DNA of 64,000 nucleotides, taken from the NCBI RefSeq assembly GCF_007556705.1, contig NZ_VJOL01000008.1:1-64000 (forward strand), in the 5' to 3' direction. Of this stretch, positions 4,825 to 56,810 are shown piece after piece. The notes under the pieces were generated by a model. The model was given only the letters and a program-made list of their open reading frames with translations, made no database searches and was not told the DNA's origin. The stretch's first letter is position 1. Every line of letters starts with the position of its first letter. Origin of the DNA: Tepidimonas thermarum (GTDB lineage: Bacteria; Pseudomonadota; Gammaproteobacteria; Burkholderiales; Burkholderiaceae_C). The position numbers and the translations under genes were made by a program.

Positions 4825-4826
<2 letters not shown>
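4809..4826. terminator. Hairpin between convergent infA and glnS
   Basis: A perfect 7-bp inverted repeat (GACGCGC / GCGCGTC) with a 4-base loop sits exactly between the converging 3' ends and touches the glnS stop codon. There is no T-tract on either side, so it could be a weak bidirectional terminator or an RNA 3'-end stabiliser. Confidence 0.35.
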
Positions 4827-6900
<2,074 letters not shown>

Positions 6901-6909
6901 GGCGCGATT

Positions 6910-8283
6910 TTAGGTCGCGCCCGCGGCCAGGCAGACCCGGTTGCGGCCCTCACGCTTGGCGCGGTAGAGGGCCGCGTCGGCCTGGTTGATCAGGTACTGG
7001 TAGTCCGGGTGGCCGCTGTAGGGGGCCACGCCGAGGCTGGCGGTCAGCGACAGCTCGGCCCCGTTGGGCAGCACATAGCGGTGGGTGGCGATGCGCTGCC
7101 GAATTTTGTCGGCCTGCTGCAGCGCCTGCTCCGGTGTGACGTCCACGAGCACGACCAGAAACTCCTCGCCGCCGTAGCGAAAGACGAAATCGCTGGAGCG
7201 CACCTGGTTGAGCAGCGTGCCGGCGGCTTGCTGCAAGACCGCGTCCCCCGCATCGTGGCCATGGCGGTCGTTGACCGCTTTGAAGTGGTCCAGGTCGAGC
7301 AGCAGCAGCGCAAAGGCCAGCCGCTGGCGTTGGGCGAGCTGGATTTCGCGCGAGAGGATGGCGGGCAGAAACCGCCGGTTGAGCAGCCGGGTGAGGGCGT
7401 CGCGGCCGCTTTCGAGCTCGACGTGGCGCTCGAACAGCATTTGCACCAGGTATTGCAGGTTGTCCAGCTCGCTTTGCAGGTCCACCAGCAGCGCCGCGTG
7501 CGCCGGGTCCTGGCGGTTCGCGCGGGCCAGGCGCGGCAGCAGCACCTCGTCGATGCGCTGCAGCGCGGCGTGCACCAGTTCCACCTCGGGGGCGCCATCG
7601 AACAGGTTGCTGCCTTTGTGCAGGAACCACAGCCCGAACTCGGCGTTGCGCAGCGCGGGCAGCACCTGCGGGCTTTGCTCGCGGTGCAGCGTGAACAGCA
7701 CCTCCTGGCCCCAGCTCGCGAGCAAAAAGCGCTGCCGCTCGCGCTCGACCTGCAGGTTCTGCGTCAGGGCGTGCAACCGGAACGCCTCTTCGCTGCGCAC
7801 CACGCGCTGGGTGTCGCGCACATACGACTCCGCCATCAGCTCCAGCGCCAGGTCGAACAGGTCGCCGATGGTGACCAGGGCGGCTTCCGCGAGTTCCGGC
7901 GCCAGGCCGTCGCGCAGCAATGTGACGAGCAAGCGCCCCTTGAGGAAGCGCGCCCCGCGCGCCACCAGGTAGATGGGCAGTTGGATGCGTGCGTGCACCT
8001 CGCCCACGTGGCGCTGGTGCGCGACGATGGCGTCGAGCTCCTCCCGCGTGTGGGGGGCAAAGAGCTCCTCCAGCCAGCGCTACATCGACGCGTGCAGGCG
8101 CTGATGCACGATGTCGGCATCCAAAAACAGCCGACCCTGCGGGTGTTGCAGCATCTCGGCGTAGAACGCCTCGGCCAAGGCGGCTTTGTGGGTGCGCACG
8201 ACGCGGCCGATGTGCTCGCGCACGGCGGCAGGCGTGCGCGCCAGGATCGAGGACCATTCCTCGACAGGGCTGAGATGTTCCAT
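6910..8283 (-). pseudogene. dosC: Globin-coupled diguanylate cyclase (DosC type), interrupted by an amber codon
   Basis: The frame encodes a haem-globin sensor domain, a middle helical domain and a C-terminal GGDEF domain that makes cyclic di-GMP. It follows E. coli DosC/YddV closely: the proximal haem ligand region EVHARI, the distal-side Tyr in AFYAEML, the FGLWFLHKG motif of the middle domain, and RYGGEEF as the GGDEF active site. It ends with the normal ALYRAKREGRN. The frame is open over 457 codons except for one TAG at 8080-8082, between HASM and RWLEEL, where DosC has a charged residue. A single base change (GAG or CAG to TAG) explains it, and both sides are in the same frame. A GTG at 8007 could restart translation, giving a protein without most of the globin. 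It may be a real null allele, a suppressed amber codon or a sequencing error. Confidence 0.85.
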
Positions 8284-8435
8284 TTGTTTTATTTTTTATT
8301 TTTGAATGATATTTTTGATTGTATCGTGCAGGCGATCGGGGGCCTGTCTGCCCCGGGCGGTGCGGTGTTACAGGCGGTTACGTGCGATACACGACCGACA
8401 TACCCAACGCCGCCGATCGGTGGTGCAATGGCCCC
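8284..8435. promoter_or_regulatory. AT-rich divergent promoter region
   Basis: The first 45 bases (8284-8328) are strikingly AT-rich for this genome and lie directly upstream of the dosC start on the minus strand. A TACAAT hexamer in the minus-strand reading (around 8319-8324) is a plausible -10 or UP-type context. The right half should carry the promoter of the small secreted protein gene, but no clear hexamers are seen. Confidence 0.35.
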
Positions 8436-8798
8436 ATGGACACCAAACGCTTTGCTTTACGGGTGCGCTGGCAGCGCTGGCTGCCGGTGGCGTTGCTGGC
8501 AGCGGCCGGTGCGGCGCAGGCCGGTGATGTGTACTGGTCGATAGGCGTGCACCAGCCTGGGGTGACGGTTGGGGTGGGCAACGTGCCGCCCGTGATCGTG
8601 GCGCCGGCGCCGCGGGTGGTGATGGTGCCACCCGTGCCGGTGGTCGTGCCCCCGGCGGTGGTGTATGCGCCGGTCTATGGCTACGCCGTGCCGCCGGGGC
8701 ACCGCAAGCACCGCCACTGGCACCGCGGCCACGACGAGTGGCGCGGCTGGCGCGACGACGACTGGCGTCGCCACGACGGCTGGCGCGACCGGCGCTGA
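8436..8798 (+). CDS. Small secreted Pro/Val- and His/Arg/Trp-rich protein
   Basis: A 120-residue protein that I do not recognise as a named family. It begins with a clear signal peptide: a basic start, then LPVALLAAAGAAQA with a cleavage site after AQA. Residues about 45-85 are low-complexity Pro/Val (VAPAPRVVMVPPVPVVV). The C-terminus is dominated by His, Arg, Trp and Asp (HRKHRHWHRGHDEW and repeats of WR). Small periplasmic proteins of this composition are common in Burkholderiales, but their role is not established; metal or anion binding by the His/Arg tail is only a guess. It lies between dosC (divergent) and uppP. Confidence 0.65.
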   Translation: MDTKRFALRVRWQRWLPVALLAAAGAAQAGDVYWSIGVHQPGVTVGVGNVPPVIVAPAPRVVMVPPVPVVVPPAVVYAPVYGYAVPPGHRKHRHWHRGHDEWRGWRDDDWRRHDGWRDRR

Positions 8799-16506: not shown

Positions 16507-19500
16507 GGGGTGTCCTCCGCGGGGGCGTGGGGTGGGGGCACCGCGGCATCCATGAGCGGACGCAGCAGCGCCTCGGCGGCGCGCAGCAGCGGACTGCGGG
16601 CGGCCTGTTCGAGCGGGCCGGCCAGCGCCGTGAAGTCCGGAAAGGCCAGCCGCCAGTAGGCGTCGCGGTCGCGCACGCCCGCTTGGTACTCGTCGCCGTC
16701 GTAGCGTTTGCACCCCTCGAGCCAGGCGCTGGCGGCGTCGCCATCGCGGCGCTGCAGGTGTTGCAGCATGCGCACGCCCACCTCGGGCGGCAGCGGGCAG
16801 GGCGCAGCCATGCCGTGCAGCCAATGCGTCGCCAAGGCGCGCCATGCGGCCTCGGCCACCTCGGCCGGCAGCGGCTTCAGGGCGTACAGGCCGCGCGGGC
16901 TGAGCACCCAGGTCCACACCGGGCCATGGGCGCGGTGGTGGGCCAGGTGCTGCACCCAGGGTTCGAGCAGTTTGTGGTGGCGCACGCGCAGCCCGCTCTT
17001 GGGCCCGTTGGCGTCCACCAGGGCGCTGCCCTGGCACACGAGCACGGCGCGCTCGCCGTCGGCCGCGGCGTATGGGGGGGCAAAGGCATCGCGGATGTGC
17101 AACGTGCCGCCGTCCAGATCGAGACGCTCGTCGAGCACGACCGGCTCGGCGGCGCGCGCCGGGTAGCGGGCGCGAAACGCCCGCACCGCGCGTCCGATGC
17201 GGGGCACCGCGTCGCGCCAGTCGCCCGCCTGCGCCACCCCCACCGCACCGGCGGGCCACAGGCCGCGCCAGACCGCGCGCTGCCACACCGTGTCGCAGGT
17301 GGCCAGCAGCACGGCATCGTCGTGACCCTGCCACGCGGCGCGGGCCGCCGCGCGGACCCAGGCGTCGTCGATGCGCCAGCGCGTCAGGCCGTCGGTGTCA
17401 AACGGTTCGCTGTCGTCGGCCGGCGCGTCGGCCTCGGTCAGATCGACCCGCAGGCGCTGGCGGTAAAAGGCGCGCGCCGGGTGGCGCAAAAAGTCGGCCA
17501 GCGTGCGCAGATCGATGGGGGTCTCGTGGGGCCAGGGGGGCAGCGTTGCCGCGCAGGGCGCGACCGCCGGTGCACGGCCCGACGGCAGCCACTCGTGGGC
17601 GTAGCTGAACCAGCGTTGCGTGGGTGAGGGCGGCGTGCCGTCGGTGGCGTCGCGCTGGAAGTAGGCCGCATCGAAGGGTTGCAGGCGGTGCTGCGTGGTC
17701 AGCGCCTCGAGCAGCGCCGGGCCAGCCCCTTCGCCCTCGTGGCCGGCAAGCCGCCAGCCGGCGGCCAGGTGGTCGCGCAGCTGATCGACCAGCACCGAGG
17801 CGGCACGCTCGTGGTCGTCGAGCGCGCTGCGCCCCACCCACGACAGGGTCAGGCATTCGCGCGCCGACAGCAGCGCCTCGAGGAACAGGTAGTGGTCCTC
17901 GTGGCGGCGCTGCCGGTCGCCGGGACGCGGGTGGGTGGCCATCAGGTCGAAGTCGTCGGCCGGTTGGCGCCGCGGGTAGGCCCCATCGTGCAGCCCCAGG
18001 ATGTGGATGTGCCGAAACGGCACCGCCCGCATGGGCAGCAGAGTGGCGATGGTGACGGCGCCGGCCAAAAACCGTTGGCCGGGTGGCGCCGGGGTGGCGC
18101 GGACCAGCCAGGCGTCGGCCACCACGGCCACGGGCAGCTCGGCATCGCCCGCGGCGGCGGCTTCGTCCGCCCACTCGATCAGCGCCGCGCGCAGGCGCTG
18201 CAGGGCTTGCCATTCGGCCGGGTCGGGCGCCTGGGGGTCGAGCGCCAGACAGTCGTCGAGCAGGGCCTGCAGCCGTTGTCGCCACTGCGCTGCGGATGCT
18301 GGGGTTTCCAGTGTGGCGGCGTGCCGCTCCAGCGCATCGAGCAGGCTTTGCAGGCGCGCGAGCAGGGGCGCTTCCAGCGGGGCGACACCGTGCGCGGGCA
18401 CGTGGTCCTGCCACTGCCCGTCCACCGGCCCGGTGGCGTAGCCCAGCCACAGGCGGCGCAGGCCGTCGCGCCAGGTCAGGCGCTGGGCGGCGCCGTCCGC
18501 TGCCGCGACCAGACCGAGGCGCTGGCGGTGCGCCGCGTCCAAGCCCCAGCGCACGCCGGCTTCGCCGAGCCAGCGTGCCAGCGTCTCCAGATCCGCCGCG
18601 GTGAAGCCGAAGCGGCGCGCAAACGCCGGGATGTCCAGCCAGCCCAAAACCTCGCGCAGCGTCAAGCGGCTGCGCGGCAGCGCGCACAGGCCGCGCACCA
18701 GCGCCACCAGCTGAGCGCCGGTGGCGTCGGCGGCGTCGCTGATGGCGTAGGGGATGTGGCGCGGGTCGTTGGGCGGCAGGCGGCCGAAGACGGCATGCAC
18801 CAACGGCGCGTAGGTGGCCACATCGGGCACCATGACCAGGATGTCGCGCGGTTGCAGCGTGGGGTCCCGGTGCAGCGCGGCCAGCAGCCGGTCGTGCAGC
18901 GTCTCGACCTCGCGCAGCGCGGTGTGGCAGATGTGAAAGCGCAGCGAGGCGTCCTGGGCGGGATCGACGGGGGGCCACAGGTCGCGTGTTTCGTGCAGCG
19001 GGCGGCCGTGCAAGATGTCGTCTTGCAGCTGGGCCAACAGGGAGCCGGTGCTGCCGGCCGGGATGGGGGAGGCGAACAGGTCCACCCGCTGGCCCAAGGC
19101 TTGCAGCGCGGCGTCGAAGCGGTCACGCACCGGGCGCTCTTCGTGCGCCTGCAACAAGGCGATGAAGTCGCGCCCCTGGCGTCCCCAGGCCGCCAACAGC
19201 GGGTGGCCGTGCCGGGCCGTGTCGCCGGGGGCGAGCTGTGGCGGGCTGCCCGGGCGGCGGGCCTGGCGGGCGCGCCAGTGGGCGTCCAGGCGCGCCAGCC
19301 ACACCGCATCGGGCACCATGTCGGCCCAGTGGTAGCGGCAGGGGTTGAGCACGCACACCAACACCTGCGACCAGCGCGACACCAGCGCCAGCGCCTCCAG
19401 CGTTGCGGGCGGCAGCCCGCTCAAGCCAAACACGGTCAGGCGCCGTGGCAGCCCCGCGGGCCGCGGCTGGTCCGGGTGGCGGCGTGCCGCGGCGACGAAG

Positions 19501-43866: not shown

Positions 43867-45327
43867 TCAGTGGACGGTACAAACCATGCAGGGGTCGAAG
43901 GAGCGCACGATGTGCTGCACTGCCACCGGTGTCTTTTCGCCCTCGCGCACCGGTGCATCCACCAGGGCCTGTTCCAGTGCACCCGGCGTGCCCTGCGCGT
44001 CGCGCGGCGAGAAGTTCCAGCTCGTGGGTGCAACGATCTGGTAGTTGGCCAAGCGCCCGCCGCGCACCACCAGCCAGTGGCCCAGCGCGCCGCGGGCGGC
44101 TTCGGACAGGCCCACGCCACATCCATCGTTGGGCAGGTTGGCCGGCACACAGAAGGCCTCGGTCGGGCGGATGGCCTGCAACCAAGCTTCCATCATCGGC
44201 AGCACGCGCGCGAGTTCGAGCACACGGGCGAGCACCCGCGTGAACACCGTGCCGCCGTGGCGCGCCACCGCATCGCGCAGCAGCGGGTGACCGCTGGCGA
44301 GCTGGCGCGCGATGGCGCCTGTCTCGACCACCTCGCCGCCCAGGCGCGGGGCCTTGTTCCAGGTGTAAGCGCCGGCCTTGTCGGGCTCGGGCCGCGTCAG
44401 GCCGTACATCGGATGCAGCGGTTTGCGCGCCTGCGCAAGCCAGGCGCAGGTGGCGTCTTCGGTGATGGTGCAAACGTCCACTGCGTCCAGGCGCTGCGCA
44501 TCGCCGCGCCACAAGCCCGGGACCAGCGCGTGACCGCCGTCGGACTGGGGGTAGGCGCCGAAGCTTAGGTAGCGCCCCGGGCCGGGGCCGAGGGTCTGCA
44601 GCGACAGGTCCTGCACCAGGGTGAGGAAGAATCGCAGGTCACTGCCCAGCGGATCGCGCGCTTGCCAGGCCCAGAGCGCATCTTCGCTATCCAGCGCAGT
44701 GAAGCGTTCGAGCCCATCACCGATCAGATGGCGTTCCAGGAAGGCACGGAATTCACGCAGCTTGGCCAGCAGACGCACGCGCTCGGCCGCGTCGATGGGC
44801 CGGGTCGAACCGCCGGGCTCGACCGACTGCGTGTGCGGCCATTTGCCGCCCAGCGTGCCCAGCAAAGTGAACCAGCGCTGGCGCGCCGCTGTGGCGGCTC
44901 TGACCTGCTCACCACGGTCGGGCGCGAAGCGCCGCACCGCCTCGGCGTGCCAGGGCCGGGCAGCGTAGACCGGACGTGTGAAGTCCGGCATGAAAAACAG
45001 GTAGAAGTGCGTCAGGTGGTCGGCCAGGTTCTCGGTCGCCAGGATCAGATTGGTGGCGTGTTGCCCATTCGGCGGCGGGGTGATGCCGCCCAGATCGGCC
45101 AGCGCGCGCGCCGCCGCGACCGACTGCGAGACCGAGCAAATGCCGCAGATGCGCGGCACATAGACCAGTGCGTCGTGCGGTGCCTTGCCCTGCAGGATCT
45201 GTTCGAAACCGCGGTACATGGTCGCGTTAACGTGGGCCGAGGTCACGCGGCCGTCGGCGATGTCGAGTGACACCTCCAGATCGCCCTCGACACGGTTGAA
45301 CGGCCCCACCAGAAGACGCGACGTCAC
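43867..45327 (-). CDS. hoxC: Regulatory [NiFe]-hydrogenase large subunit HoxC (HupV)
   Basis: A 486-residue catalytic subunit of the cytosolic H2 sensor (group 2b). N-terminal Ni ligands lie in VPRICGICSVSQS (CxxC), and the C-terminal pair is in SFDPCMVCTVH. The protein ends exactly at the His where other large subunits are cleaved, so no maturation protease is needed, which is characteristic of H2 sensors. The start is GTG 45327, overlapping the hoxB TGA; the first residues (VTSRLLVGPFNRVEGDLEV) match family N-termini. With HoxB it senses H2 and controls HoxJ kinase activity. Confidence 0.94.
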   Translation of the reverse strand: MTSRLLVGPFNRVEGDLEVSLDIADGRVTSAHVNATMYRGFEQILQGKAPHDALVYVPRICGICSVSQSVAAARALADLGGITPPPNGQHATNLILATENLADHLTHFYLFFMPDFTRPVYAARPWHAEAVRRFAPDRGEQVRAATAARQRWFTLLGTLGGKWPHTQSVEPGGSTRPIDAAERVRLLAKLREFRAFLERHLIGDGLERFTALDSEDALWAWQARDPLGSDLRFFLTLVQDLSLQTLGPGPGRYLSFGAYPQSDGGHALVPGLWRGDAQRLDAVDVCTITEDATCAWLAQARKPLHPMYGLTRPEPDKAGAYTWNKAPRLGGEVVETGAIARQLASGHPLLRDAVARHGGTVFTRVLARVLELARVLPMMEAWLQAIRPTEAFCVPANLPNDGCGVGLSEAARGALGHWLVVRGGRLANYQIVAPTSWNFSPRDAQGTPGALEQALVDAPVREGEKTPVAVQHIVRSFDPCMVCTVH

Positions 45328-46319
45328 TTCAACCTCGTCTTTCGTACTGCTGGCTTGACGACTAAATGATCCGCCACCGCGTTGTGCTTCACCCGCTTGG
45401 GTGTTGCGCTTTTGGAGAGTGACGCTAGCGCGACGAACCAGGCCTTGGGCATGTCGGTGGGCAGGCCCACCGGGATGCCGGCGATCTTGGGGGTCTGGTG
45501 GAAGGGGTGGCCAGGCTCCTGAAAGCCGGGCTCGGTGCAGGCGATGCAGGCGTAGCCACCGCGCGTGCAGCTGCCTTCGCCGTTCCAGGGGCGGATGTTG
45601 CAGTCGGCATGCACCTGGGTGCCCTTGCAGCCCATGTGCTCCATCATGCAGCCCAGGTCGGACGGTTTTTCGGCGCTGGCCTTGAACTCGTAGTACTCGT
45701 TGCGCGTGCAACCGTGGTGCACCAGCTGGTCGGCGTAGAAGCGCGGGCGCGCCAGCGGATCGAGGTCGTCGACGCCGAAGGCGTCGGCGGCCAGCGCCAT
45801 CAGCGTGTCGATCACCCAGCTCGGGTGCGTGGGGCAGCCGGCGACGTTGATCACGGGCAGACCGCTGCCGCTTCGGAAGTCGGCCCCCAGCAGGCCGCCG
45901 ATGCGGTCGTCCTCGTACTGAAGGCCGCACGCGTCGGTGGGGTTGTCGCCACCAGCCGTGACACCGCCCCAGGCGGCGCAGCTGCCGATGGCCAGGACGT
46001 GTTTCGCTTTCGCTGCGAGTTCGCGCACCCAGTGGATCATGGACTGGCCGGTGCCGGCGAGCATGTGGAAGCGGCCGGTGCCGTTGGGGCCGCGCAGCAG
46101 CGAGCCTTCGACGCAAAGCGCGTCCAGCCGCGTGGCACCGTCGAGTATCGACTGCAGCAGCGCCAGCACGTCCTCGCCACTGGCGAGCGACAGCGAGGGG
46201 TGCCAGAGCACGTGAATACCCGCGTCGCGCAGATGGCCCTGGAAGTCGGTGGTGTCGGCACACAGCAGCGACATGCTGCAGCCGCCGCAGCCACCCGATT
46301 GCAGCCACAGGACGTTCAT
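45324..46319 (-). CDS. hoxB: Regulatory [NiFe]-hydrogenase small subunit HoxB (HupU)
   Basis: A 331-residue iron-sulphur subunit of the H2 sensor. It lacks a Tat signal and starts directly with MNVLWLQSGGCGGCSMSLL, giving the first cluster cysteines. The remaining ligands are in AIGSCAAWGG, INVAGCPTHPS, and the C-terminal CTRNEYYEF, CMMEHMGCKG, CNIRPWN, CTRGGYACIACTEPGF series. The last about 30 residues are a basic tail (SKSATPKRVKHN) longer than the cluster-binding core needs, where kinase contact in such sensors is thought to occur. The start ATG 46319 overlaps the preceding small ORF (ATGA); the stop overlaps hoxC (GTGA). Confidence 0.94.
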   Translation of the reverse strand: MNVLWLQSGGCGGCSMSLLCADTTDFQGHLRDAGIHVLWHPSLSLASGEDVLALLQSILDGATRLDALCVEGSLLRGPNGTGRFHMLAGTGQSMIHWVRELAAKAKHVLAIGSCAAWGGVTAGGDNPTDACGLQYEDDRIGGLLGADFRSGSGLPVINVAGCPTHPSWVIDTLMALAADAFGVDDLDPLARPRFYADQLVHHGCTRNEYYEFKASAEKPSDLGCMMEHMGCKGTQVHADCNIRPWNGEGSCTRGGYACIACTEPGFQEPGHPFHQTPKIAGIPVGLPTDMPKAWFVALASLSKSATPKRVKHNAVADHLVVKPAVRKTRLK

Positions 46320-46498
46320 GCGGGGGCCTCTTCTGTTGCGGGCTCGCCAGCCAACCAGCGGCAGGCCCAGGCGACGGCCAGGTCAGGAACGGCCAGCACT
46401 GCGGCCCCCGGTGCCGTGATCACGCCCGGGCGTTCGCGCCGCCGCGCCATCAGCGCGTCGGCGGCGTGGTAGCGGCCGGGCTGGTCGAATGCGGTCAT
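46316..46498 (-). CDS. Small 60-residue ORF between hoxA and hoxB
   Basis: A 60-residue frame that starts with ATG overlapping the hoxA TGA (ATGA) and stops with TGA overlapping the hoxB ATG (ATGA). The double coupling and the lack of spare bases argue that it is translated. The sequence is MTAFDQPGRYHAADALMARR, then a Pro/Ala/Val segment (PGVITAPGAAVLAVPDLAVAWA) and an acidic tail. I do not recognise a family, and there is no cysteine cluster or transmembrane helix of full length. It could be a link in translational coupling of hoxA and hoxB, or a small partner of the sensor. No function can be assigned. Confidence 0.6.
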   Translation of the reverse strand: MTAFDQPGRYHAADALMARRRERPGVITAPGAAVLAVPDLAVAWACRWLAGEPATEEAPA

Positions 46499-47955
46499 GG
46501 CTTGTCGAGACCGAAGCGTTGCATCTTGGCCCTGAGACCGACCCGCGAGAGGCCGAGTTCCGCGGCCGTCTTGGTCTTGTTCCAACGGTGCCGCAACAGG
46601 GTCTCACGCAGCACCATGGCCTCGATTACGTCCAGGCGGTCGTTCAGGCTGCCACTGGAGGGAAGAGCGGCCGCGAGTTCGCCGCCACCACCGGCCGCAC
46701 GACCCTGCAGCACGCGCGGCGAAAAGGCGGCCGGCGCAAGCGTGGTGCCGTCATGCAGCGCCAGTGCGCGACCGATTTCGTTACGCAGCTCGCGGATGTT
46801 GCCAGGCCAGGGGTAGGCGAGCAGGCAGGCCAGAGTCTCGTCGGGCAGTGTGGCGCCGGGGTGCCCCAATTCGGCCGCAACGTCGTGCACGATCTGGCGC
46901 GCAATCAGCGGGATGTCACCCACCCGCTCGCGCAGCGGCGGCACGGTGAGCGTAACGGCCGAGAGCCGGTAGTAGAGGTCCTCGCGGAACAGGCCTTCGC
47001 GCACGCGCTGTTCCAGCTGCCGGTGGGTGGCGGCAATGATGCGCACGTCTACCGGCACCGGCCGCGCCGCGCCCACGGGTCGCACCTCCCCTTCCTGCAG
47101 CACGCGCAGCAGCTTGACCTGGAAAGCCGGCGAGGTCTCGCCGATCTCGTCGAGGAAGACGGTGCCACCGTCGGCGCGCTGGAACAGGCCGACGTGGTCC
47201 TCAAACGCACCGGTGAAGGCGCCGCGCTTGTGGCCGAACAGCTCGGATTCGAGCAGGGTGTCAGGGATGGCGGCGCAGTTCTCCACCACGAAAGGGCCCC
47301 TCAGGCGCGGGCTCGCATAGTGGACGGCGCGCGCCAGCAGTTCTTTGCCGGTGCCCGACTCGCCCAGCACCAGCACCGGAATGTCGTAGCGCGCCACGCG
47401 TTCGGCCATGCGGCAGATGAGGTCCATCGGACTGCCCGGCGCACGCACGATGCGCTCGAACCCGAAGTGGCTCTTGGCCTGCGCCATCTGCGTGGCGGTG
47501 CGCTGGCGCAGCACGCGGGTGCTGGTGCGCAGCTCCAGGTCCAGCCACGCGGTCTGCCGCTGCAGCACCTGGGCTTCCACCGCGTTGCGCACCGAGTCGA
47601 GCAGATGGTCGGGCGACCAGGGCTTGAGGATGTACTGGTAGATGCCGGCTTCGTTGATGCCGGCGATGATGTCTTCGCTGTCGGTGTAGCCGGAGATGAC
47701 GATGCGCACGATGTCGGGCCACTGCTCACGCACTTCTTTGAGGAAGTTCACGCCGGTCATGCCGGGCATGCGCTGGTCGCACAGGATCACGTTCACCGGC
47801 TGGCGCTGCAGCAGGCCTCGCGCCTCGTCGGCGCTGCTGGCGGTCAAGACGGTGAAGTCCTCGTCCAGCGTGCGGCGCAGCGCGTCCTGCGAACGTACCT
47901 CGTCATCGACCACCAGCACGGTGGGCTTCCGGTCGTGCACTCGGGGTGGGGTCAC
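46495..47955 (-). CDS. hoxA: Hydrogenase transcriptional activator HoxA (HupR type, NtrC family)
   Basis: A 486-residue sigma-54 activator. The receiver domain has VLVVDDE and the phosphoacceptor Asp at about 60 in VILCDQRMPGMTG. The AAA+ domain has GESGTGKELLARA (Walker A), GAFTGAF (the sigma-54 contact loop), GGTVFLDEIGE (Walker B) and RIIAATHRQLEQRV. The C-terminal Fis-type helix-turn-helix is TLLRHRWNKTKTAAELGLSRVGLRAKMQRFGL. In related hydrogenase regulators the unphosphorylated form activates. Start at GTG 47955, just after the hypX stop; GTG 47940 is an alternative. The matching sigma-54 promoter lies upstream of hoxK. Confidence 0.94.
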   Translation of the reverse strand: MTPPRVHDRKPTVLVVDDEVRSQDALRRTLDEDFTVLTASSADEARGLLQRQPVNVILCDQRMPGMTGVNFLKEVREQWPDIVRIVISGYTDSEDIIAGINEAGIYQYILKPWSPDHLLDSVRNAVEAQVLQRQTAWLDLELRTSTRVLRQRTATQMAQAKSHFGFERIVRAPGSPMDLICRMAERVARYDIPVLVLGESGTGKELLARAVHYASPRLRGPFVVENCAAIPDTLLESELFGHKRGAFTGAFEDHVGLFQRADGGTVFLDEIGETSPAFQVKLLRVLQEGEVRPVGAARPVPVDVRIIAATHRQLEQRVREGLFREDLYYRLSAVTLTVPPLRERVGDIPLIARQIVHDVAAELGHPGATLPDETLACLLAYPWPGNIRELRNEIGRALALHDGTTLAPAAFSPRVLQGRAAGGGGELAAALPSSGSLNDRLDVIEAMVLRETLLRHRWNKTKTAAELGLSRVGLRAKMQRFGLDKP

Positions 47956-47963
47956 GGCGGCAC

Positions 47964-49706
47964 TCAGCGGTGGGTGGCGAGGTGGCGCGGTGTCCACGCG
48001 TGCGGCAGCTTGTGCACAAAGTGATGCCGGGCTACGTGGTAGCTCGGGTCGAAGCCGTAGAAGTTGCGGTGCATGCGCGCCAGTTCCTGTTCGCGGTAGC
48101 GGACCAGTGGGCAGCACGCCTCGTCGGCGGCACGCTGGGCCTGCTTGGCCGCCACCTGTTTGGCATAATTGTAGGAGCCGGCCAGCGCCAGCGCACGTTC
48201 GATGACACGGCTTTCATAGCCCTCGCGTGGCTCCTCGTCGCAGGCGTCGATCAGACCGATGCGCAGCGCGTCGGCGGCGCGCAGCGGCAGGCGCCCGGCC
48301 ATCAGCTCGCGCGCGCCGGTGTCGCCCAAACGGCGTGGCAGCAGGTAGGTCCAGTATTCCGAGCCGTAGAGGTTACCCATGTTTTTGTAGTGGGGGTTGA
48401 GCACCACGCCTTCGTGTGCCCAGACCTGGTCGGCTGCGAGCGCCAGGAAAACTCCGCCTGCCCCCGCATTGCCGCGCATCACGCTGACCGTGAGACGGTC
48501 GGTGGTCTCCAGCACCGCCAGCGCCGCGTCGTCCATGGCCTGGATGTTGCGCCAGGACGCGTCGGCAGGGCTGTCACCCGGTCGGTGCGCCGCAGCCTCG
48601 ATGCTGTTGAGGTCGATGCCGTTGCTGAAGAAGTCCTCACCGCCCATGAGCAGCAGCACCTGTGTCGGCCGCTCGCGCACGGCCAGCAGGGCAGCGCGCA
48701 GGCGCTCGCAGCGCTCGGTGCTCATCGCGCCGTTGTAGAAGTCGAAGTATAGGCAGCCTACGCGCGCCCCCTCGGGCCCATGTTCTGTGTAGCGCAGTTC
48801 GGCCCACTCGTCGGCTGCGCGCATCAGGGGCACGGGCCGCTGGGGCAGCGCCGCCGCTTCGTTTACAAACACGTCGGCCACCACCTGCTTGATGTGCCCC
48901 TGGCCGGGCACGGTGCCCGGCGGGTCGGCCAGCCGTGCGTGGCCGATCCACACGCCGCCATCGACCGTCCGGCGCAGCAATGCGCCGTCGCGCGTCGCAA
49001 GCGGTTCCCCAGGCGCACGGTCCGCGAACTCGGTGAGGGCAGCGGCACTGGCCTCGTGGGGGTCGCTCAGGTAACAGGATCGACCCCAGAGCACGTCCAG
49101 TACGCCGGGCTGACCATCGGCACAGCGCAGCTTGGCAAGCACGGTGGCGGTGTCGTCGCGCGACCAGTCGATGGCGCGATCGGACTGCTTCATCAAGGGT
49201 TTCCATGTCGGTGTGGGCCTGGCCAGTGGCGGCGCCTCCCGGTGGCCCGCAGCAAAGCGCGCCACTGCTTCCAGCGTGGCCTGCAGCGCCGCCTGCGTCA
49301 CCTCACGCCGGTACAAACTCCCCTTGCTGGCAGGGCGCATGTCGAACGACGCATGGGCCCAGACCGGACCGGCGTCGTACTCGCCGTCAGCCTGCAGCAC
49401 GGTGACGCCCCAGCGCAGCAGGCGGTCGCGCACTGCCCAGTCCAGCGCGCTGGGGCCCTGGTCACCCGGCGGACCGGGGTGCACCACGAAACAGGGCACG
49501 CGTTGCCAGACCGAGGACGGGATGCGCCGTTTGAGGAAGGGAGCGAGCACCAAATCGGGCGCAAACTCCTGAACCGCCTCTTCGGTCACGCTGTCGGCAA
49601 TGTCAAGTTCCACGCTGAGCGTGTGGCCACGCGCGCGCAGCTCGGCGAATAGACGCTGACTGAGGCTGTTGAAGCTGTGGCAGAGCAGCAGAATGCGCAA
49701 GGCCAT
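47964..49706 (-). CDS. hypX: HypX (HoxX), CO-ligand synthase of [NiFe]-hydrogenase
   Basis: A 580-residue two-domain protein. The N-terminal half resembles formyl-tetrahydrofolate hydrolases (ILLLCHSFNSLSQRLF, HPGPPGDQGPSALDWA). The C-terminal half is crotonase-like (LLMGGEDFFSNGIDLN, RGNAGAGGVFLALAADQVW, GSEYWTYLLPRRLG). HypX makes the active-site CO from formyl-THF when oxygen is present, so it indicates aerobic H2 use. It lies between hypE (39 bases upstream) and hoxA, at its usual place in aerobic clusters. Confidence 0.92.
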   Translation of the reverse strand: MALRILLLCHSFNSLSQRLFAELRARGHTLSVELDIADSVTEEAVQEFAPDLVLAPFLKRRIPSSVWQRVPCFVVHPGPPGDQGPSALDWAVRDRLLRWGVTVLQADGEYDAGPVWAHASFDMRPASKGSLYRREVTQAALQATLEAVARFAAGHREAPPLARPTPTWKPLMKQSDRAIDWSRDDTATVLAKLRCADGQPGVLDVLWGRSCYLSDPHEASAAALTEFADRAPGEPLATRDGALLRRTVDGGVWIGHARLADPPGTVPGQGHIKQVVADVFVNEAAALPQRPVPLMRAADEWAELRYTEHGPEGARVGCLYFDFYNGAMSTERCERLRAALLAVRERPTQVLLLMGGEDFFSNGIDLNSIEAAAHRPGDSPADASWRNIQAMDDAALAVLETTDRLTVSVMRGNAGAGGVFLALAADQVWAHEGVVLNPHYKNMGNLYGSEYWTYLLPRRLGDTGARELMAGRLPLRAADALRIGLIDACDEEPREGYESRVIERALALAGSYNYAKQVAAKQAQRAADEACCPLVRYREQELARMHRNFYGFDPSYHVARHHFVHKLPHAWTPRHLATHR

Positions 49707-49745
49707 GAATTGACGGTGTAGATCGCTCAGTGACGCACACGGGTG

Positions 49746-50858
49746 TCAACAAATCCTGGGCAACTGCTCCCCGCTGAGCCAGTCCACCACACGCCGACCA
49801 CCAAAGCTCGTGGCCATCTGAACGAACTGGTGTGGGTCGGCGGTGACCTCGCCGATGCGCGCGGCGTCCTGCCCGAGCGGGTGGGTGCGCATGGCGGCCA
49901 GCACAGCCTCAGCCGCCTCGGATGCAACCACCGCGATCAGCTTGCCTTCGTTGGCGACGTAGAGCGGGTCCAGGCCCAGCAGCTCGCAGGCTGCCTTCAC
50001 CTGGGGCTTGACGGGAATCGCGGCCTCCTGCAACAGCATGCCAACGCCGGACTGGCGCGCGATTTCGTTGAGCGTGGTGGCCAGACCTCCACGCGTGGGG
50101 TCGCGCAGGACGCGCACGGCGCCGGGTGCAGCCGCCAGTATCGCCGCCACCAGGGTGTGCAGCGGGGCCGTATCACTCTGAATGGTGGTTTCGAAAGCCA
50201 GTGACTCGCGCTGCGAGAGCACGGCCACGCCGTGGTCGCCGATGGTGCCAGACAGCAGGATCACGTCGCCCGGCTGCGCGTGGCGGCCGCTGATGCACAC
50301 GCCCGATGGCAGCACGCCCACGCCGGTGGTGCTGATAAACACGCCGTCTCCCTTGCCCTGCTCCACCACCTTGGTGTCGCCGGTCACCACCGGCACGCCG
50401 GCCTCGCGCGCCGCAGTGGCCATGCTGCGGACGATACGTTGCAGGTCGGCTAGCGGGAAACCTTCTTCGATGATGAAGCTCGCGCTCAGGTACAGCGGCC
50501 GCGCACCCAACATGGCCACGTCATTGACTGTGCCGTGCACCGACAGGCAGCCGATGTCGCCGCCGGGGAAGAACAGCGGCGAGATCACATGGCCGTCGGT
50601 CGCCATCACCAGCCGCCCCTCGGCAGGGTCGAAGGCCGGCAACGCCAACACCGCACCGTCGTCACCCTGGCGCAGATACTCGTTGTCGAAGGCGGCGAGG
50701 AACAGTTCTTCGATCAGCTGCGCCGCCGCCTTGCCGCCCGCGCCGTGGCCCATGTCGATGTGGCCGTGCTTGATGTCCAGTGGGCGGATGTAGTTCTTCT
50801 TCACGGGCTTGGGGGCGAGCGCCTCTCCGGCGCCGGCCAGGTCGTGTTCGGTTCTCAT
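49746..50858 (-). CDS. hypE: Hydrogenase maturation protein HypE
   Basis: A 370-residue PurM-like enzyme that dehydrates the thiocarboxamide on its own C-terminal Cys to thiocyanate, the source of the CN ligands. The C-terminus is the required PRIC. The ATP-binding core is recognisable in HIDMGHGAGGKAAAQLIEE, ATDGHVISPLFFPGGDIG, VVTGDTKVVEQGKGDGVFI and RDPTRGGLATTLNEIA. ATG 50858 overlaps the hypD stop (ATGA), so hypD and hypE are translationally coupled; their proteins act together with HypC. Confidence 0.96.
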   Translation of the reverse strand: MRTEHDLAGAGEALAPKPVKKNYIRPLDIKHGHIDMGHGAGGKAAAQLIEELFLAAFDNEYLRQGDDGAVLALPAFDPAEGRLVMATDGHVISPLFFPGGDIGCLSVHGTVNDVAMLGARPLYLSASFIIEEGFPLADLQRIVRSMATAAREAGVPVVTGDTKVVEQGKGDGVFISTTGVGVLPSGVCISGRHAQPGDVILLSGTIGDHGVAVLSQRESLAFETTIQSDTAPLHTLVAAILAAAPGAVRVLRDPTRGGLATTLNEIARQSGVGMLLQEAAIPVKPQVKAACELLGLDPLYVANEGKLIAVVASEAAEAVLAAMRTHPLGQDAARIGEVTADPHQFVQMATSFGGRRVVDWLSGEQLPRIC

Positions 50859-52012
50859 GGGGTGACCTCCTCGGTGGCATCGGCGATGAGGATGTCGCGG
50901 AAGCGCCCGTAGGTGTAGTGCGCGGCGCAGGCGCCTTCGCTGGACACCATGCAGGAGCCCACTGGGTTCTCGGGGGTACAGACGGTGCCAAAGATCTTAC
51001 AGTCGGCGGGCTTCTTCACGCCGCGCAGGATGGCACCGCACTCGCAAGCCTTGTTATCGGGCACGGAACGATAGGCCAAGTCGAAGCGACGCTCGGCATC
51101 GAACGCGGCGAAAGCCTCGCGGATTTTGAGAGCGCTGTAGGGCACCTCGCCCAGACCGCGCCACTCGAAGCTGGGGCGCAGCTCAAAGACCTCGGATACC
51201 AGAGCCTGGGCACGCAGATTGCCCTCGGACGTGACAGCGCGGGTAAACTCGTTTTCCACACGGGCGTCACCGCGGTTGACCTGACGCACCAGCATCAGGA
51301 TGGCCTGCATCACGTCCAGCGGCTCGAAGCCGGCGATCACCACCGGCTTGTGGTACTCCTCGGCGAAGTATTCGTAGGGGGCAGAGCCGATCACGATGCT
51401 CACATGCGCCGGGCCGACGAAGCCGTCGATCGGCACGGTGCCAAACTGGCGCACCTCAGGCGATTCGAGAATGTGGGTGATGGCCGAGGGCGTGAGCACG
51501 TGGCAGCACAGCACACTGAAATTGGACAGGCCCTCGCGTTGCGCGTCAAGAATGGCCAGCGCCGTGGGCGGCGTGGTGGTTTCGAAACCAATGGCAAAAA
51601 ACACCACCTCGCGCTGCGGATTCGCGCGGGCGATGGCCAGCGCGTCGGCGGCCGAATAGATCATGCGGATGTCGCCACCGCGTGCCTTGGCCTTGATAAG
51701 CGACAGCCCGTCACTGGCCGGCACGCGCATGGTGTCGCCGTAGGTGCAAACGATGGCATTGCGCTGCAGCGCCAGACGGATCGCCAGATCGATGCGGCCA
51801 ATGGGTAGCACGCAGACCGGGCAGCCTGGTCCGTGAACCATGCGCACGTTGGACGGCAGCAGTTCGAGTACGCCGTAGCGACTGATGGCGTGCGTGTGGC
51901 CGCCGCAGAACTCCATGAAGCTGTAGGAGCGTTTCGGGTCGGCCTCGGCATGGATGCGTTCGCCGATCCGTTGAGCCAGCTCGCCATCGCGGAATTCATT
52001 AATGTATTTCAT
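50855..52012 (-). CDS. hypD: Hydrogenase maturation protein HypD
   Basis: A 385-residue iron-sulphur scaffold that, with HypC, assembles the Fe(CN)2CO unit. Cysteine motifs are complete: MEFCGGHTHAI, HGPGCPVCVLP, and the C-terminal cluster ligands CECGAIL, GVKKPADCKIFGTVCTPENPVGSCMVS. The segment AIGFETTTPPTALAI and the redox-related FAEEYHKPVVIAGFEPLDV are conserved. Start at ATG 52012. It lies 29 bases after hypC. Confidence 0.96.
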   Translation of the reverse strand: MKYINEFRDGELAQRIGERIHAEADPKRSYSFMEFCGGHTHAISRYGVLELLPSNVRMVHGPGCPVCVLPIGRIDLAIRLALQRNAIVCTYGDTMRVPASDGLSLIKAKARGGDIRMIYSAADALAIARANPQREVVFFAIGFETTTPPTALAILDAQREGLSNFSVLCCHVLTPSAITHILESPEVRQFGTVPIDGFVGPAHVSIVIGSAPYEYFAEEYHKPVVIAGFEPLDVMQAILMLVRQVNRGDARVENEFTRAVTSEGNLRAQALVSEVFELRPSFEWRGLGEVPYSALKIREAFAAFDAERRFDLAYRSVPDNKACECGAILRGVKKPADCKIFGTVCTPENPVGSCMVSSEGACAAHYTYGRFRDILIADATEEVTP

Positions 52013-52041
52013 AGGGCCCTCACGCTACCCATTGCATGTGG

Positions 52042-52347
52042 TTAGCTGCTCCAAGACTGGGAAGAACCCTGGTCTTCGCCGGGTCCGTGGGCTGCCCCCG
52101 CGTGGAACGGCCCGGCGCTGGGGCTCTGCTCGGCTGTCTGCATCTCGGCAAACAGGGCCAGGGTCTTCTCGGCCTCTTCTGGGTCGATCAGGCCGATGGC
52201 GTGGCCCACGTGCACGATCACGTAATCGCCGACCTCGGCCTCGGGCACCAGGGCAATGGAGATGGCTTTGTGGATACCGCCGAGGTCGACCACCGCCTGG
52301 TCCTGGTCGCGTTTCGCGACGAGGCGCGCGGGAATGGCTAGGCACAT
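52042..52347 (-). CDS. hypC: Hydrogenase maturation chaperone HypC
   Basis: A 101-residue chaperone that carries the Fe-ligand group with HypD and delivers it to the large subunit. It begins MCLAIPARLV, where Cys2 is essential after Met removal. The OB-fold core VVDLGGIHKAISIALVPEAEVGDYVIVHVGHAI is standard. The tail after residue 75 is longer than usual and Gly/Ser-rich. The hypF gene upstream overlaps its start by 10 bases. Confidence 0.95.
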   Translation of the reverse strand: MCLAIPARLVAKRDQDQAVVDLGGIHKAISIALVPEAEVGDYVIVHVGHAIGLIDPEEAEKTLALFAEMQTAEQSPSAGPFHAGAAHGPGEDQGSSQSWSS

Positions 52348-53477
52348 GAAACGGTCTCCTCAACGGGGGGAATGGCTGTGGGTGTTTTGAGTTGCTGCGC
52401 GGCCACCCAGGCCTGGCCGATGGCCAGCCCCGCATCGCCACAGCCGGATGGACCGGGCAGGTAAACGGTGAGTCCCGCATCGACCAGGCGACGCACGGTG
52501 CGCTCGCGCAGGATGCGGTTGAAGAAGCAGCCCCCGCCGAGGGTGGCGGTGCGGGTGCCACGCGCGTGGGCGGCGGCGATCAATGCATCGGCCAGCGCGT
52601 CGGCCATGGCTAGGTGGAAGCCGGCCGCGGCGGCATCGGCATCGGGCGCGTCGAAGAGCTGCGCCAGCACGGGGCGCAGATCGATCACCCCATCGGCACC
52701 GATCACCGCACCGGGCAAGGGTGCGAGGGTGGGCTGGGCGGTCAAGGCGCGCGCGGCCGCCTGCTCCAGCGCGATCGCCGCCTGGGCCTCGTCGCGCTGG
52801 TGATGGCACAGACCGAGCGCGCCGGCGGCGGCGTCGAACCAGCGGCCGGCGCTGCTGGTCTTCGGACAGTTCAGGCCCTTGTCCAGCATCTGGTGCACAC
52901 CGGCGGCCACCGCTTCGCCCACCGCCAGCCCGAAACGCGGCACGATCTCGTCGCCGCGCCCTATCGCGTGCAGCGCACTGGTCGCCATGCGCCAGGGTTC
53001 GCGGGCGGCCCGGTCACCGCCCGGCAGGGCCAGCGGCTGTAGGTGCCCCAGGCGCTGCCACTGCGCACCATCGAGCCAGAGCAGCTCGCCGCCCCAGGGC
53101 GTGCGGTCCGTTCCGAGGCCCACGCCATCGAGCGCGAGACCCACGACCGCTTCGGTGATGCCGTGCTCGGCGATCACCGCCGCCAGGTGCGCGTGGTGGT
53201 GCTGCACGCCAATAGCGGGTACACCCAGCGCATCGGCGGTGGCGATGGCCAGCTGCGTGCTGAAGAAATCGGGGTGCAGGTCGTGTGCGATGGCCTGCAC
53301 CGGGGCACCAGCGTCCGCCGCCTGTCGCACCAGTGCCTGCACCGAAAGCTCCAGTGCTGCGCAGGCCGCCGGGTCGCTGAGATCACCGTGCACCGGCGAC
53401 CAGTGCGCACGACCGCCCAGCACCAGGCACGCCGCGTTCTTGAGCCAGGCGCCGACGGCGAGTACGGTTGCGCTCAT
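52338..53477 (-). CDS. hypF: Truncated HypF (HypF1 type) carbamoyltransferase
   Basis: A 379-residue protein that corresponds only to the C-terminal Kae1-like domain of HypF. Metal ligands are in HHHAH (residues 93-97) and GGGCFFNRILRERTV; GVGLGTDRTPWGGELL and SSAGRWFDAAAGALG are further family motifs. The acylphosphatase, zinc-finger and YrdC-like domains of full HypF (about 750 residues) are absent. The start is ATG 53477, 13 bases after hypB, leaving no room for them. A similarly shortened HypF1 is known in the MBH cluster of Ralstonia. It would need another protein to make the carbamoyl-adenylate, so a second full HypF is likely elsewhere. Confidence 0.9.
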   Translation of the reverse strand: MSATVLAVGAWLKNAACLVLGGRAHWSPVHGDLSDPAACAALELSVQALVRQAADAGAPVQAIAHDLHPDFFSTQLAIATADALGVPAIGVQHHHAHLAAVIAEHGITEAVVGLALDGVGLGTDRTPWGGELLWLDGAQWQRLGHLQPLALPGGDRAAREPWRMATSALHAIGRGDEIVPRFGLAVGEAVAAGVHQMLDKGLNCPKTSSAGRWFDAAAGALGLCHHQRDEAQAAIALEQAAARALTAQPTLAPLPGAVIGADGVIDLRPVLAQLFDAPDADAAAAGFHLAMADALADALIAAAHARGTRTATLGGGCFFNRILRERTVRRLVDAGLTVYLPGPSGCGDAGLAIGQAWVAAQQLKTPTAIPPVEETVSCA

Positions 53478-53490
53478 GGCGTCGCATCCT

Positions 53491-54495
53491 TCAGGCGGCC
53501 GAGCCGGTGGACAGCGCAGCTTTGGCCTTGGCCAGCTCGGCTTCGAGGTGCTTGACGCGCTCGCGCAGTGCGGTCTCCTCCGGTTCCCGCACGTCGTGAT
53601 GATGGCGATGTGCGTCCATCGCGTGGTCCAGCCAGTGCAGCCAGGCGTCCATGCCTTCGCCGGTGGTGGCGGACAGCTGGATGATCTCAATGGTTGGGTT
53701 CACGCGCCGCGCGAGTTCGATGCAGCGCGCCACATCGAACTTCACGTGCGGCAGCAGGTCGGTCTTGTTGAGGATCATGAGCTGTGCGGCCGCGAACATG
53801 TCGGGGTATTTCAGCGGCTTGTCCTCGCCCTCGGTCACCGAGAGGATGGCCACCTTGGCCGCTTCGCCCAGGTCCCAAACGGCGGGGCAGACCAGGTTGC
53901 CGACGTTCTCGATGAACAGCAGGCTGCGGCCGTTACCTCGGTGGCGGTGATCGTGCCCATGCGCGTGATCACGATCATGCTCATGGTCGTGCAAATGCTC
54001 ATGCGTGTGTAACTGCGCGAACGCCTCGGCCACCATGGACGCGTCCAGGTGACAGCCCTTGCCGGTGTTGACCTGGATCGCCGGCACACCGGTGGCGCGG
54101 ATGCGGTCGGCGTCGAAGCTGGTCTGCTGGTCGCCCTCGATCACAGCCACGGGCAGGTCGGGCTGGCGTTGCCTGAGCGCCTGGATGGTGGCGCACAGCA
54201 GCGTGGTCTTGCCCGAACCCGGACTGGACACCAGGTTGAGCGCGGTCACGCCGTGCGCTTCGAAGTGCGCGCGGTTGAGTTGCGCCACGCGGTTGTTGGC
54301 GCCCAGGATGTCGGTCTCCAGCTTGATGGCGCGCGCCTGGCTCATGCCCGGCACCGACACGCGGGCCGCACCGGCCCCGAAGTGCAGGTCGCCATTGGCC
54401 GGGTTCACCGCGATCACGCCGGGCTCGCCGCCGGCCTGCTGCACATGCCCGGCATTGGCCGGGCTGCTGTCACGGCATCCGCAAACGACACACAT
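53491..54495 (-). CDS. hypB: Nickel chaperone and GTPase HypB, with internal His-rich stretch
   Basis: A 334-residue SIMIBI GTPase for Ni insertion. It starts [10 protein letters not shown], an N-terminal cysteine metal motif, followed by a 40-residue linker. P-loop [11 protein letters not shown] is at residues 90-100, [13 protein letters not shown] and [11 protein letters not shown] follow, and NKTDLLPHV is the guanine specificity motif. A histidine-rich stretch (13 His in about 24 residues, 163-186) sits between [15 protein letters not shown] and SLLFIENVG, inside the GTPase domain, whereas the usual place is the N-terminus. A coiled C-terminal tail (about 300-334) adds further His (HRHHHD). 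It lies between hypA and hypF. Confidence 0.94.
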
Positions 54496-54518
54496 GATCT
54501 GCCTCCTTCAACGTTGTT

Positions 54519-54866
54519 TCAATCATCACTCACGCGCATGTCAACGACGCGCAGTTCCATGCCGCCCGTGGGTTGCAACTGGTAGCCGCCGCACGCTGGA
54601 CAGGCGTCGCCACGCTGGGCGATGGCCACCGTCTGGCCGCAGGGCAGGCACCAGGCCTGGCCAGGGGGTTCGTCAATCTCGATCCGTGCCCCCTCCAGCA
54701 GCGTGCCGGGCGCCAGGCTCTCCAGCGCAAAGCGCAGGGCGCGCACATCCACCCCGGCCAGCTGGCCGGCCTCCAGCCGCAGCTCAATCAGGCGTGCAAA
54801 ACCCTCGCGCCGCGCGGTGTCCTCCACCAGCTGCAACACGCCGCCGGCCAGACTGGCTTCATGCAT
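54519..54866 (-). CDS. hypA: Hydrogenase nickel-incorporation protein HypA
   Basis: A 115-residue zinc and nickel protein that hands Ni to the large subunit. The N-terminal MHEASL places the Ni-binding His2. The zinc site is CLPCG and CPACGG (about residues 73-94). The linking family sequence is LIELRLEAGQLAGVDVRALRFALES. ATG 54866 sits one base after the hoxV stop, so it is in the same operon. Confidence 0.95.
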   Translation of the reverse strand: MHEASLAGGVLQLVEDTARREGFARLIELRLEAGQLAGVDVRALRFALESLAPGTLLEGARIEIDEPPGQAWCLPCGQTVAIAQRGDACPACGGYQLQPTGGMELRVVDMRVSDD

Positions 54867-54867
54867 G

Positions 54868-56013
54868 TCAAACCTCCAGGCTCACATCCTGCACCATCGG
54901 CGCAGCGATTTCAAAAGGCACACATGGATCTATGGCTGCCATGAGCAGGCGCACGCGGGCGTGCAGGTCCGGCGCTGCCGCTGGCAAGGCAGCCAGCGCC
55001 TGGGCGACCACGCCTGCGCGGTGGAAGTTCCATTCGGTGGGTGCCAGCACCTGCGCAGCACGCAGTCGGCAGGGCTGACCGGCGGGGGTGTCCTCCAGGG
55101 TCACCTGGTGGATCAGCAGACCACGCGCCATCTCCACCCAGGCCAGTCCCTGGCGCGGGCCGGTGGCCAGCGCACCCCAGGCCAACCAGCCGGCGCCGCC
55201 TTCCCCGGGGGCATCGGGAAGGCTCAGTCGCACCAGTTCGGCCAGCCGACTGCCGAGCAGGGACCAGGCCGTCCAGGGCCGGTTGGGCGCAACGTCGTGC
55301 AGGCGGCTCCATACGCCGGTGCAGGCTGGCCGCCCTTCCCAGCGGGGCTGCAGCACATCGACAGCGCCCGTCGCCACCGCCGCGCCGAGCACCCGCAATG
55401 ACGTCTCAGCGGCGTGCGGCCGCAGGGCCTGCTCGTGCGCCCCGGGCAGTGGCGTGTCGGCCTCGCGCGCCGAACGCAGCAGCGCCGGCAACCAGCCAGG
55501 GTGGCGCCGGCTCCAGTCGTCGAGCCAGTCGGCGCCGCGGGTCCGCCAGGCCCGCAACCAGGTGGCCGGACGCATCTGCAGCCACTCGTCCTGCAACCAC
55601 TGGTGCAGCGCCGGCCAGGGGTTGGGCGACAGCGGGCTGGCGATCAGGGGGCAGCGGCGCAATCCATCGGCCGCCCGCGCGCTCACCTCGGCTACCTGGC
55701 CAGGCTCCGCGAGCAGGCGCGGCCAGTCCAGCGCGATGCGGCGCAGGTGATCCAGCGCGGTTTCGCGCTGTAGGGTGGCGGCCACCGGCGCCATGGCCGG
55801 GAACCGGCCAGGTTCGACCGCCTGGATCGCCAGCTGGCTGGCGGTGCGGTGGGCGTGGCCGCACAGGCTGAACAAACTGGCAAGCAGACCTGGCCAAGCC
55901 TCGGCCGGGTGCCCGGGCGCGAGCCGGGCGGCCCAGGCCTGGCGGCTGCTGTGCAGGCTGTGCGGCACCGGCACGCCGGGGCGCAGTTGCAGGGCACCCG
56001 CCAGATCGTTCAT
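54868..56013 (-). CDS. hoxV: Hydrogenase assembly scaffold HoxV (HupK)
   Basis: A 381-residue protein related to hydrogenase large subunits but without a complete active site. It has HAHRTASQLAIQAV (in place of the N-terminal CxxC) and a C-terminal IDPCVPFEIA, where the second Cys of DPCxxC is replaced. HoxV/HupK acts as a scaffold transferring the Fe-ligand group to the HoxG precursor in oxygen-tolerant systems. ATG 56013 overlaps the hoxT stop (ATGA). Confidence 0.88.
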   Translation of the reverse strand: MNDLAGALQLRPGVPVPHSLHSSRQAWAARLAPGHPAEAWPGLLASLFSLCGHAHRTASQLAIQAVEPGRFPAMAPVAATLQRETALDHLRRIALDWPRLLAEPGQVAEVSARAADGLRRCPLIASPLSPNPWPALHQWLQDEWLQMRPATWLRAWRTRGADWLDDWSRRHPGWLPALLRSAREADTPLPGAHEQALRPHAAETSLRVLGAAVATGAVDVLQPRWEGRPACTGVWSRLHDVAPNRPWTAWSLLGSRLAELVRLSLPDAPGEGGAGWLAWGALATGPRQGLAWVEMARGLLIHQVTLEDTPAGQPCRLRAAQVLAPTEWNFHRAGVVAQALAALPAAAPDLHARVRLLMAAIDPCVPFEIAAPMVQDVSLEV

Positions 56014-56576: not shown

Positions 56577-56577
56577 T

Positions 56578-56808
56578 TCAATCCAGCAACAGAAATTGCT
56601 CGGCCAGGCCATCGCAGTTGGGGCAGCGCCAATGTGGCGGCAGCTCGGCAAAGGGCGTGCCAGGCGGGATCTGCCATTGCGGGTCGCCCACGGCCGGGTC
56701 GTAGACCCACCAGCAGATCTTGCATTCCAGACGCGAGTCCGGCCGCAGCAGCTCGCGCTTGCCCAGGTAGGAGCCCTCGAAACCATCGAAACGGTCACCG
56801 GACGACAT
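56578..56808 (-). CDS. hoxR: Rubredoxin HoxR (HupI)
   Basis: A 76-residue rubredoxin. The FeS4 ligands are CKICWWVYD and CPNCDG, and the fold residues DPQWQIPPGTPF match the family. HoxR belongs to the accessory set of oxygen-tolerant membrane hydrogenases and is linked to protection or repair of the small subunit cluster during assembly. It overlaps neither neighbour (2 bases from hoxQ); hoxT starts right after its stop. Confidence 0.93.
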   Translation of the reverse strand: MSSGDRFDGFEGSYLGKRELLRPDSRLECKICWWVYDPAVGDPQWQIPPGTPFAELPPHWRCPNCDGLAEQFLLLD

Positions 56809-56810
56809 GT

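Follow-up and report, generated by a model that had tools for sequence, protein, structure and literature searches.

A recent point nonsense mutation has probably inactivated a dispensable O2-sensing diguanylate cyclase in Tepidimonas thermarum AA-1, as a further step in the erosion of this locus across the genus. The gene lies in the 64,000-nucleotide stretch of DNA that was analyzed (the window). Translation of the minus-strand frame from 8283 to 6910 revealed 457 codons plus a terminal TAA, with a sole internal stop, TAG 8082-8080, at codon 68. The frame and its elements are as follows:

6910-8283, minus strand: interrupted frame of a globin-coupled diguanylate cyclase (DosC-like), 457 codons plus TAA
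8080-8082, minus strand: in-frame TAG, codon 68; Gln or Arg codons stand here in four Tepidimonas relatives
8080-8283, minus strand: 5' fragment ORF of 67 aa, ending past the distal haem-pocket stretch
6910-8007, minus strand: 3' fragment ORF of 365 aa from GTG 8007, with the second globin half, the middle domain and GGDEF
7807-8214, minus strand: Protoglobin domain (Pfam match), split by the TAG
8161-8163, minus strand: distal haem-pocket Tyr, residue 41, motif-aligned to DosC Tyr43 (role described in PMC5549716)
7993-7995, minus strand: proximal haem His, residue 97, motif-aligned to DosC His98, 3' of the TAG
7429-7749, minus strand: DosC middle domain (PF21118; Pfam match)
6937-7404, minus strand: GGDEF domain with RSSD I-site and GGEEF A-site (Pfam match, motifs)
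7834-7836, minus strand: first in-frame ATG after the TAG, residue 150, which would yield middle domain plus GGDEF; modest upstream pairing only
8318-8323, minus strand: TACAAT, -10-like element upstream of the cyclase, by consensus match only

As written, the frame is split inside the globin, and the three families fall into one frame only with the TAG read through. Read in this way, the protein scores above the Pfam cut-offs for Protoglobin (residues 24-159), DosC_2nd (179-285) and GGDEF (294-449). The motifs are in place, namely distal F40-Y41, proximal H97, the middle-domain H-K, RSSD at 362-365 and GGEEF at 371-375. Solved structures from DosC and further globin-coupled cyclases can be aligned to the sequence, in both its globin and its GGDEF part, and residues Y41, M67 and H97 correspond by motif to DosC Y43, M69 and H98, whose roles are described in PMC5549716. 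The initial annotation had described a globin-coupled diguanylate cyclase that is intact but for one nonsense codon, and one TAG, three Pfam domains and retained motifs are indeed what we found. Both haem-pocket residues, Y41 and H97, are present, on opposite sides of the stop. The TAG is the codon right after M67, the last distal-pocket residue, and stands 29 codons before the haem-binding His. A product of 67 residues, ended between the distal haem residues and the proximal His, is unable to act as a haem sensor. The cyclase has a single full-length DNA match in its own genome; 19 further matches are short, none above about 180 bases. With the cyclase as query, 28 matches were obtained in the genome, and the 18 matches listed are mostly other GGDEF proteins.

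The frame resembles E. coli DosC/YddV (EcGReg) and Bordetella BpeGReg in its globin-middle-GGDEF order, distal Tyr, proximal His, middle-domain H-K, A-site and I-site. It differs from them in being cut by the TAG between the distal and the proximal haem residues and in that the flanking ORFs scanned include no EAL-type (DosP-like) partner. Interruption of cyclases by nonsense codons is in itself already known (PMC11327459). Shigella flexneri dgcE, dgcQ, dgcN and dgcM have a premature stop ahead of a GGDEF domain that is itself intact, as does the T. thermarum frame, whereas Shigella dosC (dgcO) has a truncating deletion without GGDEF, unlike the nonsense codon described here (PMC11327459). An account of this gene was not found in the open-access literature on Tepidimonas together with c-di-GMP or globin, and the words globin, diguanylate and hydrogenase are absent from a Tepidimonas genome paper (PMC7386788).

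Orthologues were recovered from four of the ten other genomes of the genus. They are 73-76% identical and free of stops; three are full length and one, that of T. fonticaldi AT-A2 (G004, NZ_VJOO01000007, L034), is 5'-truncated. Given these stop-free frames, the cyclase frame is evidently no chance ORF. Codon 68 reads CAG in G004 and G006, CGT in G002 and CGC in G005, and in the outgroups ACC in Oryzomicrobium and CAG in Crenobacter; a stop at this position occurs in 0/4 genus and 0/2 outgroup orthologues aligned. The same-codon comparison that the initial annotation had proposed thus gave a sense codon in all four genus relatives having the gene. Two of them have Gln (CAG) here and the other two Arg. 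In a Protoglobin family search, five of the 11 genus genomes gave a match and only that of T. thermarum contained a stop. At the level of the family, Protoglobin was found in 50 of 299 genomes. Among the 76 matches listed, two had an internal stop, the T. thermarum cyclase and one in G048 that, judged by eye, does not belong to a cyclase. A search for sensor-less members recovered the DosC middle domain in six of 369 class genomes, and the five besides T. thermarum have it in frames of 460-516 aa. In the gene tree, a pair of T. thermarum and T. fonticaldi was neither supported nor rejected (AU p 0.351), and the same holds for a pairing of T. fonticaldi with G006 (AU p 0.258).

Translation from ATG 8283 would end after 67 residues, inside the globin and before the proximal His. 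Haem sensor and cyclase would then both remain unmade, or would be made in traces only, via internal starts. For DosC/BpeGReg a full globin fold is reported to be needed for activity (PMC5549716). The downstream glnS gene would be unaffected, keeping a -10-like box of its own:

4825-6900, minus strand: glnS, starting 9 bp downstream of the cyclase stop codon
6907-6912, minus strand: TAAAAT, -10-like element of glnS overlapping the cyclase TAA; putative promoter role

TACAAT or TAAAAT stands just before the glnS ATG in 11/11 genus genomes, with or without the cyclase, which suggests that the glnS promoter is independent of the cyclase. With its own -10-like box in place, the nonsense codon need not harm this essential gene. 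We set aside a polar influence on glnS, as well as a coupling between the TAG and GlnRS supply, on account of this box in all 11 genomes. We infer that the allele is null, of recent age and harmless for glnS. It is most likely an ordinary loss-of-function allele in a known family, in a gene that the genus tends to lose.

Several other elements of the window were noted. The conserved TACAAT/TAAAAT adjoining the glnS ATG may indicate a nearly leaderless glnS mRNA. Upstream of the cyclase, a GTAAC pair (8367-8381, minus strand, starts 10 nt apart) looks like a regulator site, and GTAAC-like pairs are similarly placed in four relatives with the cyclase. A 1149-aa open frame on the plus strand (5095-8544), antisense to glnS and the cyclase, is probably a GC-rich shadow frame. 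About 35 kb from the cyclase lies a hydrogenase cluster (43867-60246) with small subunit, large subunit, hypE, hypD, HypF, hypB, hupH and cytochrome b. Its small subunit has no evident signal peptide by eye, and only the C-terminal half of the family model was matched by its HypF. The initial annotation had set the loss of O2 sensing beside an oxygen-tolerant hydrogenase; for this cluster, both such tolerance and a link to the cyclase would be conjectural.

Gene order around the locus (abhydrolase - uppP - [cyclase] - glnS) is conserved in Tepidimonas, with abhydrolase - uppP - glnS present in 10 of 11 genomes. The cyclase site is empty in five genomes (G001, G003, G007, G008 and G010), where a search for remnants before glnS gave chance-level matches only (blastn E 0.012 or more, tblastn 0.29 or more). 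G009 has no protoglobin match genome-wide, and there the site itself is at a contig edge. Outside the genus, the homologue of the cyclase had glnS as a neighbour at 0/10 loci (6 family genomes, 4 others; 4-5 kb on each side). A tree of three neighbouring proteins placed T. thermarum with T. fonticaldi, G009 and G010 (98/95). Gene-bearing and gene-less genomes occur on both sides of its midpoint root, while both damaged copies fall on one side and all three intact copies on the other. Since the insertion site is one and conserved, the simplest reading would be an ancestral gene that was lost repeatedly. The pattern indicates that O2 control of c-di-GMP via this cyclase is dispensable in Tepidimonas. 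The initial annotation, made from sequence alone, had no view of the absent or damaged copies in several sister species.

Codon models did not detect relaxed selection on the T. thermarum branch, either for the whole gene or by domain. Whole-gene omega was 0.063 on this branch and 0.082 elsewhere. For globin, middle domain and GGDEF the values were 0.059/0.085/0.064 compared to 0.091/0.066/0.065 elsewhere, a difference that is not significant (2dlnL 2.92, 3 df). For the globin past the TAG, omega was 0.024 on the T. thermarum branch and 0.035 elsewhere, both rough partition values, as one of the partition fits was unconverged with a negative 2dlnL. This conserved stretch argues against a long-standing globin-less product in T. 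thermarum. The final neutral stretch was bounded at about 2-3% of the T. thermarum branch under three topologies, a larger fraction costing more than 1.92 log units. Missing relaxation is expected if the loss is recent and hence not decisive against a pseudogene; codon models are unable to separate a very young null allele from a product still under selection. The branch is also long, with about 3 neutral changes per site and synonymous sites near saturation, so that the result reads as 'recent or still constrained' and gives no date. By the codon models, the lesion appears to be young, or an error.

Translation of the 3' half from GTG 8007, TTG 7932, ATG 7836 or GTG 7821 would give a middle-plus-GGDEF cyclase without a working O2 sensor, an outcome that we regard as unlikely for T. 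thermarum. Its catalytic and I-site residues are all intact, and upstream pairing reaches -6.6, -5.6 and -6.1 kcal/mol at TTG 7932, ATG 7836 and GTG 7821, respectively. The normal start ATG 8283, which follows an A-rich leader without Shine-Dalgarno pairing, is itself unpaired (+2.0), so that pairing is no must here. However, GTG 8007 is unpaired (+1.2) and the other values are close to the 10% quantile (-6.2) for arbitrary positions within the gene; the strongest pairing among the starts listed belongs to GTG 7575 (-7.2), inside the middle domain. A precedent comes from Shigella, where c-di-GMP is still raised by dgcE, dgcQ and dgcN despite the nonsense codons ahead of their GGDEF domains (PMC11327459). 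In Shigella dgcM and dgcQ an ATG follows 3 codons past the stop (PMC11327459), whereas the first start in T. thermarum is a GTG 25 codons on. T. fonticaldi, independently 5'-less, has likewise retained an intact middle-plus-GGDEF half. On the contrary, E. coli DosC truncations produced neither the full rdar morphotype nor motility inhibition in Salmonella, so without a full in vivo phenotype, and DosC middle plus GGDEF was four-fold less active in vitro (PMC5549716). The unrelaxed globin past the TAG is also unlike what a long-lived sensor-less product predicts. Reinitiation at GTG 8007 to yield a sensor-less cyclase had been proposed in the initial annotation. This codon is indeed the first in-frame start, but it shows no Shine-Dalgarno-like pairing, and its product keeps the second globin half and is therefore not cleanly sensor-less. 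By analogy, a residual cyclase from the T. thermarum allele is possible, and loss of activity appears likelier than unregulated activity. The further proposal that the loss uncouples c-di-GMP from O2 is doubtful, as truncated DosC is weak or inactive (PMC5549716).

That the TAG arose in sequencing or assembly, or became fixed in the sequenced culture alone, is improbable. Such an origin would fit a lone substitution in a frame that is otherwise undecayed and normally constrained. The assembly is a draft of 2,703,753 bp in 129 contigs. Isolated substitution errors are, however, rare in MiSeq/SPAdes assemblies. The genome of T. thermarum AA-1T comes from one type-strain culture and was assembled with SPAdes from MiSeq 2x300 reads (PMC7386788). 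The TAG lies about 8 kb inside a 64.8-kb contig. Moreover, nine named window genes show no stop within their match to T. fonticaldi frames (thiC, MFS, glnS, the small gene beside uppP, uppP, abhydrolase, recB, M90 peptidase and cysS); these are the unflagged named genes of an interrupted-gene census (64-kb window against 110 kb of T. fonticaldi) whose list was swamped, in this GC-rich DNA, by shadow frames, gene ends and low-complexity matches. A genuine, recent null allele remains our preferred reading.

The T. fonticaldi copy likewise stands before glnS, with the globin start damaged and the cyclase half (middle plus GGDEF) intact. Compared to T. thermarum, it shows an apparent deletion rather than a nonsense codon, and more private globin changes. 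Leader, start codon and the first ~31 codons are missing, the match beginning at query residue 31. The GTAAC-like pair lies 97/87 nt from the FY codons, compared to 205-250 nt in the other four gene-bearing genomes, and the -10-like box, defined by a loose hexamer pattern, lies 38 nt from them compared to 157-173. In-frame ATG, GTG or TTG codons were not found before residues 44/45. The lesion looks like a deletion of roughly 120 nt of leader and first codons. The damaged 5' region is located in L034 near 4930-5140, which equals G004:C67 about 17440-17645, minus strand.

Private amino-acid changes in globin and rest number 15/4 in T. fonticaldi and 3/17 in T. thermarum (Fisher p 9e-5). Globin omega was 0.155 in T. 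fonticaldi compared to 0.065 elsewhere, with the cyclase half lower (2dlnL 28.2, 3 df, shared branch lengths). For the T. fonticaldi and T. thermarum branches together, 2dlnL for domain omega was 12.6, and for T. thermarum alone 2.9. When the neutral length of the branch was free per domain, the T. fonticaldi signal shrank to 2dlnL 4.2 and 7.2 under two topologies (p 0.24 and 0.067), and the globin contrast is therefore insecure as relaxed selection. It may instead reflect regional divergence or recombination plus saturation. Parallel sensor loss would mean that T. fonticaldi, by an apparent deletion, and T. thermarum, by nonsense, independently turned an O2-gated cyclase O2-blind, internal starts giving the product. 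The strongest support for this comes from T. fonticaldi with its 15 private globin changes against 4 in the rest, and we regard such a scenario as improbable. Nevertheless, the T. fonticaldi copy is a more interesting lead than the T. thermarum allele.

Readthrough of the TAG by a suppressor tRNA, leaky termination or programmed recoding, with the full sensor being made, is very improbable. Constraint is normal on both sides of codon 68, and in the Shigella study readthrough is mentioned as one potential origin of full-length bands (PMC11327459). TAG is rare as a terminator (1/26 window genes, which were chosen as open frames and counted for their stop codons only, giving no internal-stop control). 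Against this, the genus and outgroup orthologues have no stop at codon 68, and internal stops are absent from the 17 other GGDEF-type matches listed (28 in all including the cyclase) and from the best 16 of 17 EAL matches. Recoding is unlikely because a CTA-anticodon tRNA was not found and RF1 is present (prfA over cut-off); amber suppression and loss of RF1 were rejected on these grounds. The amber suppressor tRNA that the initial annotation wished to have looked for was not among the 44 tRNA matches (43 named by ARAGORN, the remaining weak match reading CCG by eye), an absence that is not absolute since GAT and TGC anticodons are also lacking and the assembly is thus probably without rRNA operons. 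This weak match is a truncated tRNA-Arg(CCG) copy at G000:C56:25260-25330 (L156), directly before the intact gene.

For annotators, a null allele means that the T. thermarum gene is to be treated as a broken allele rather than as a working O2-sensing cyclase. Should translation of the broken copies persist, the genus would provide a small natural series, from intact and 5'-truncated to nonsense-interrupted and absent, on a cyclase outliving its sensor.
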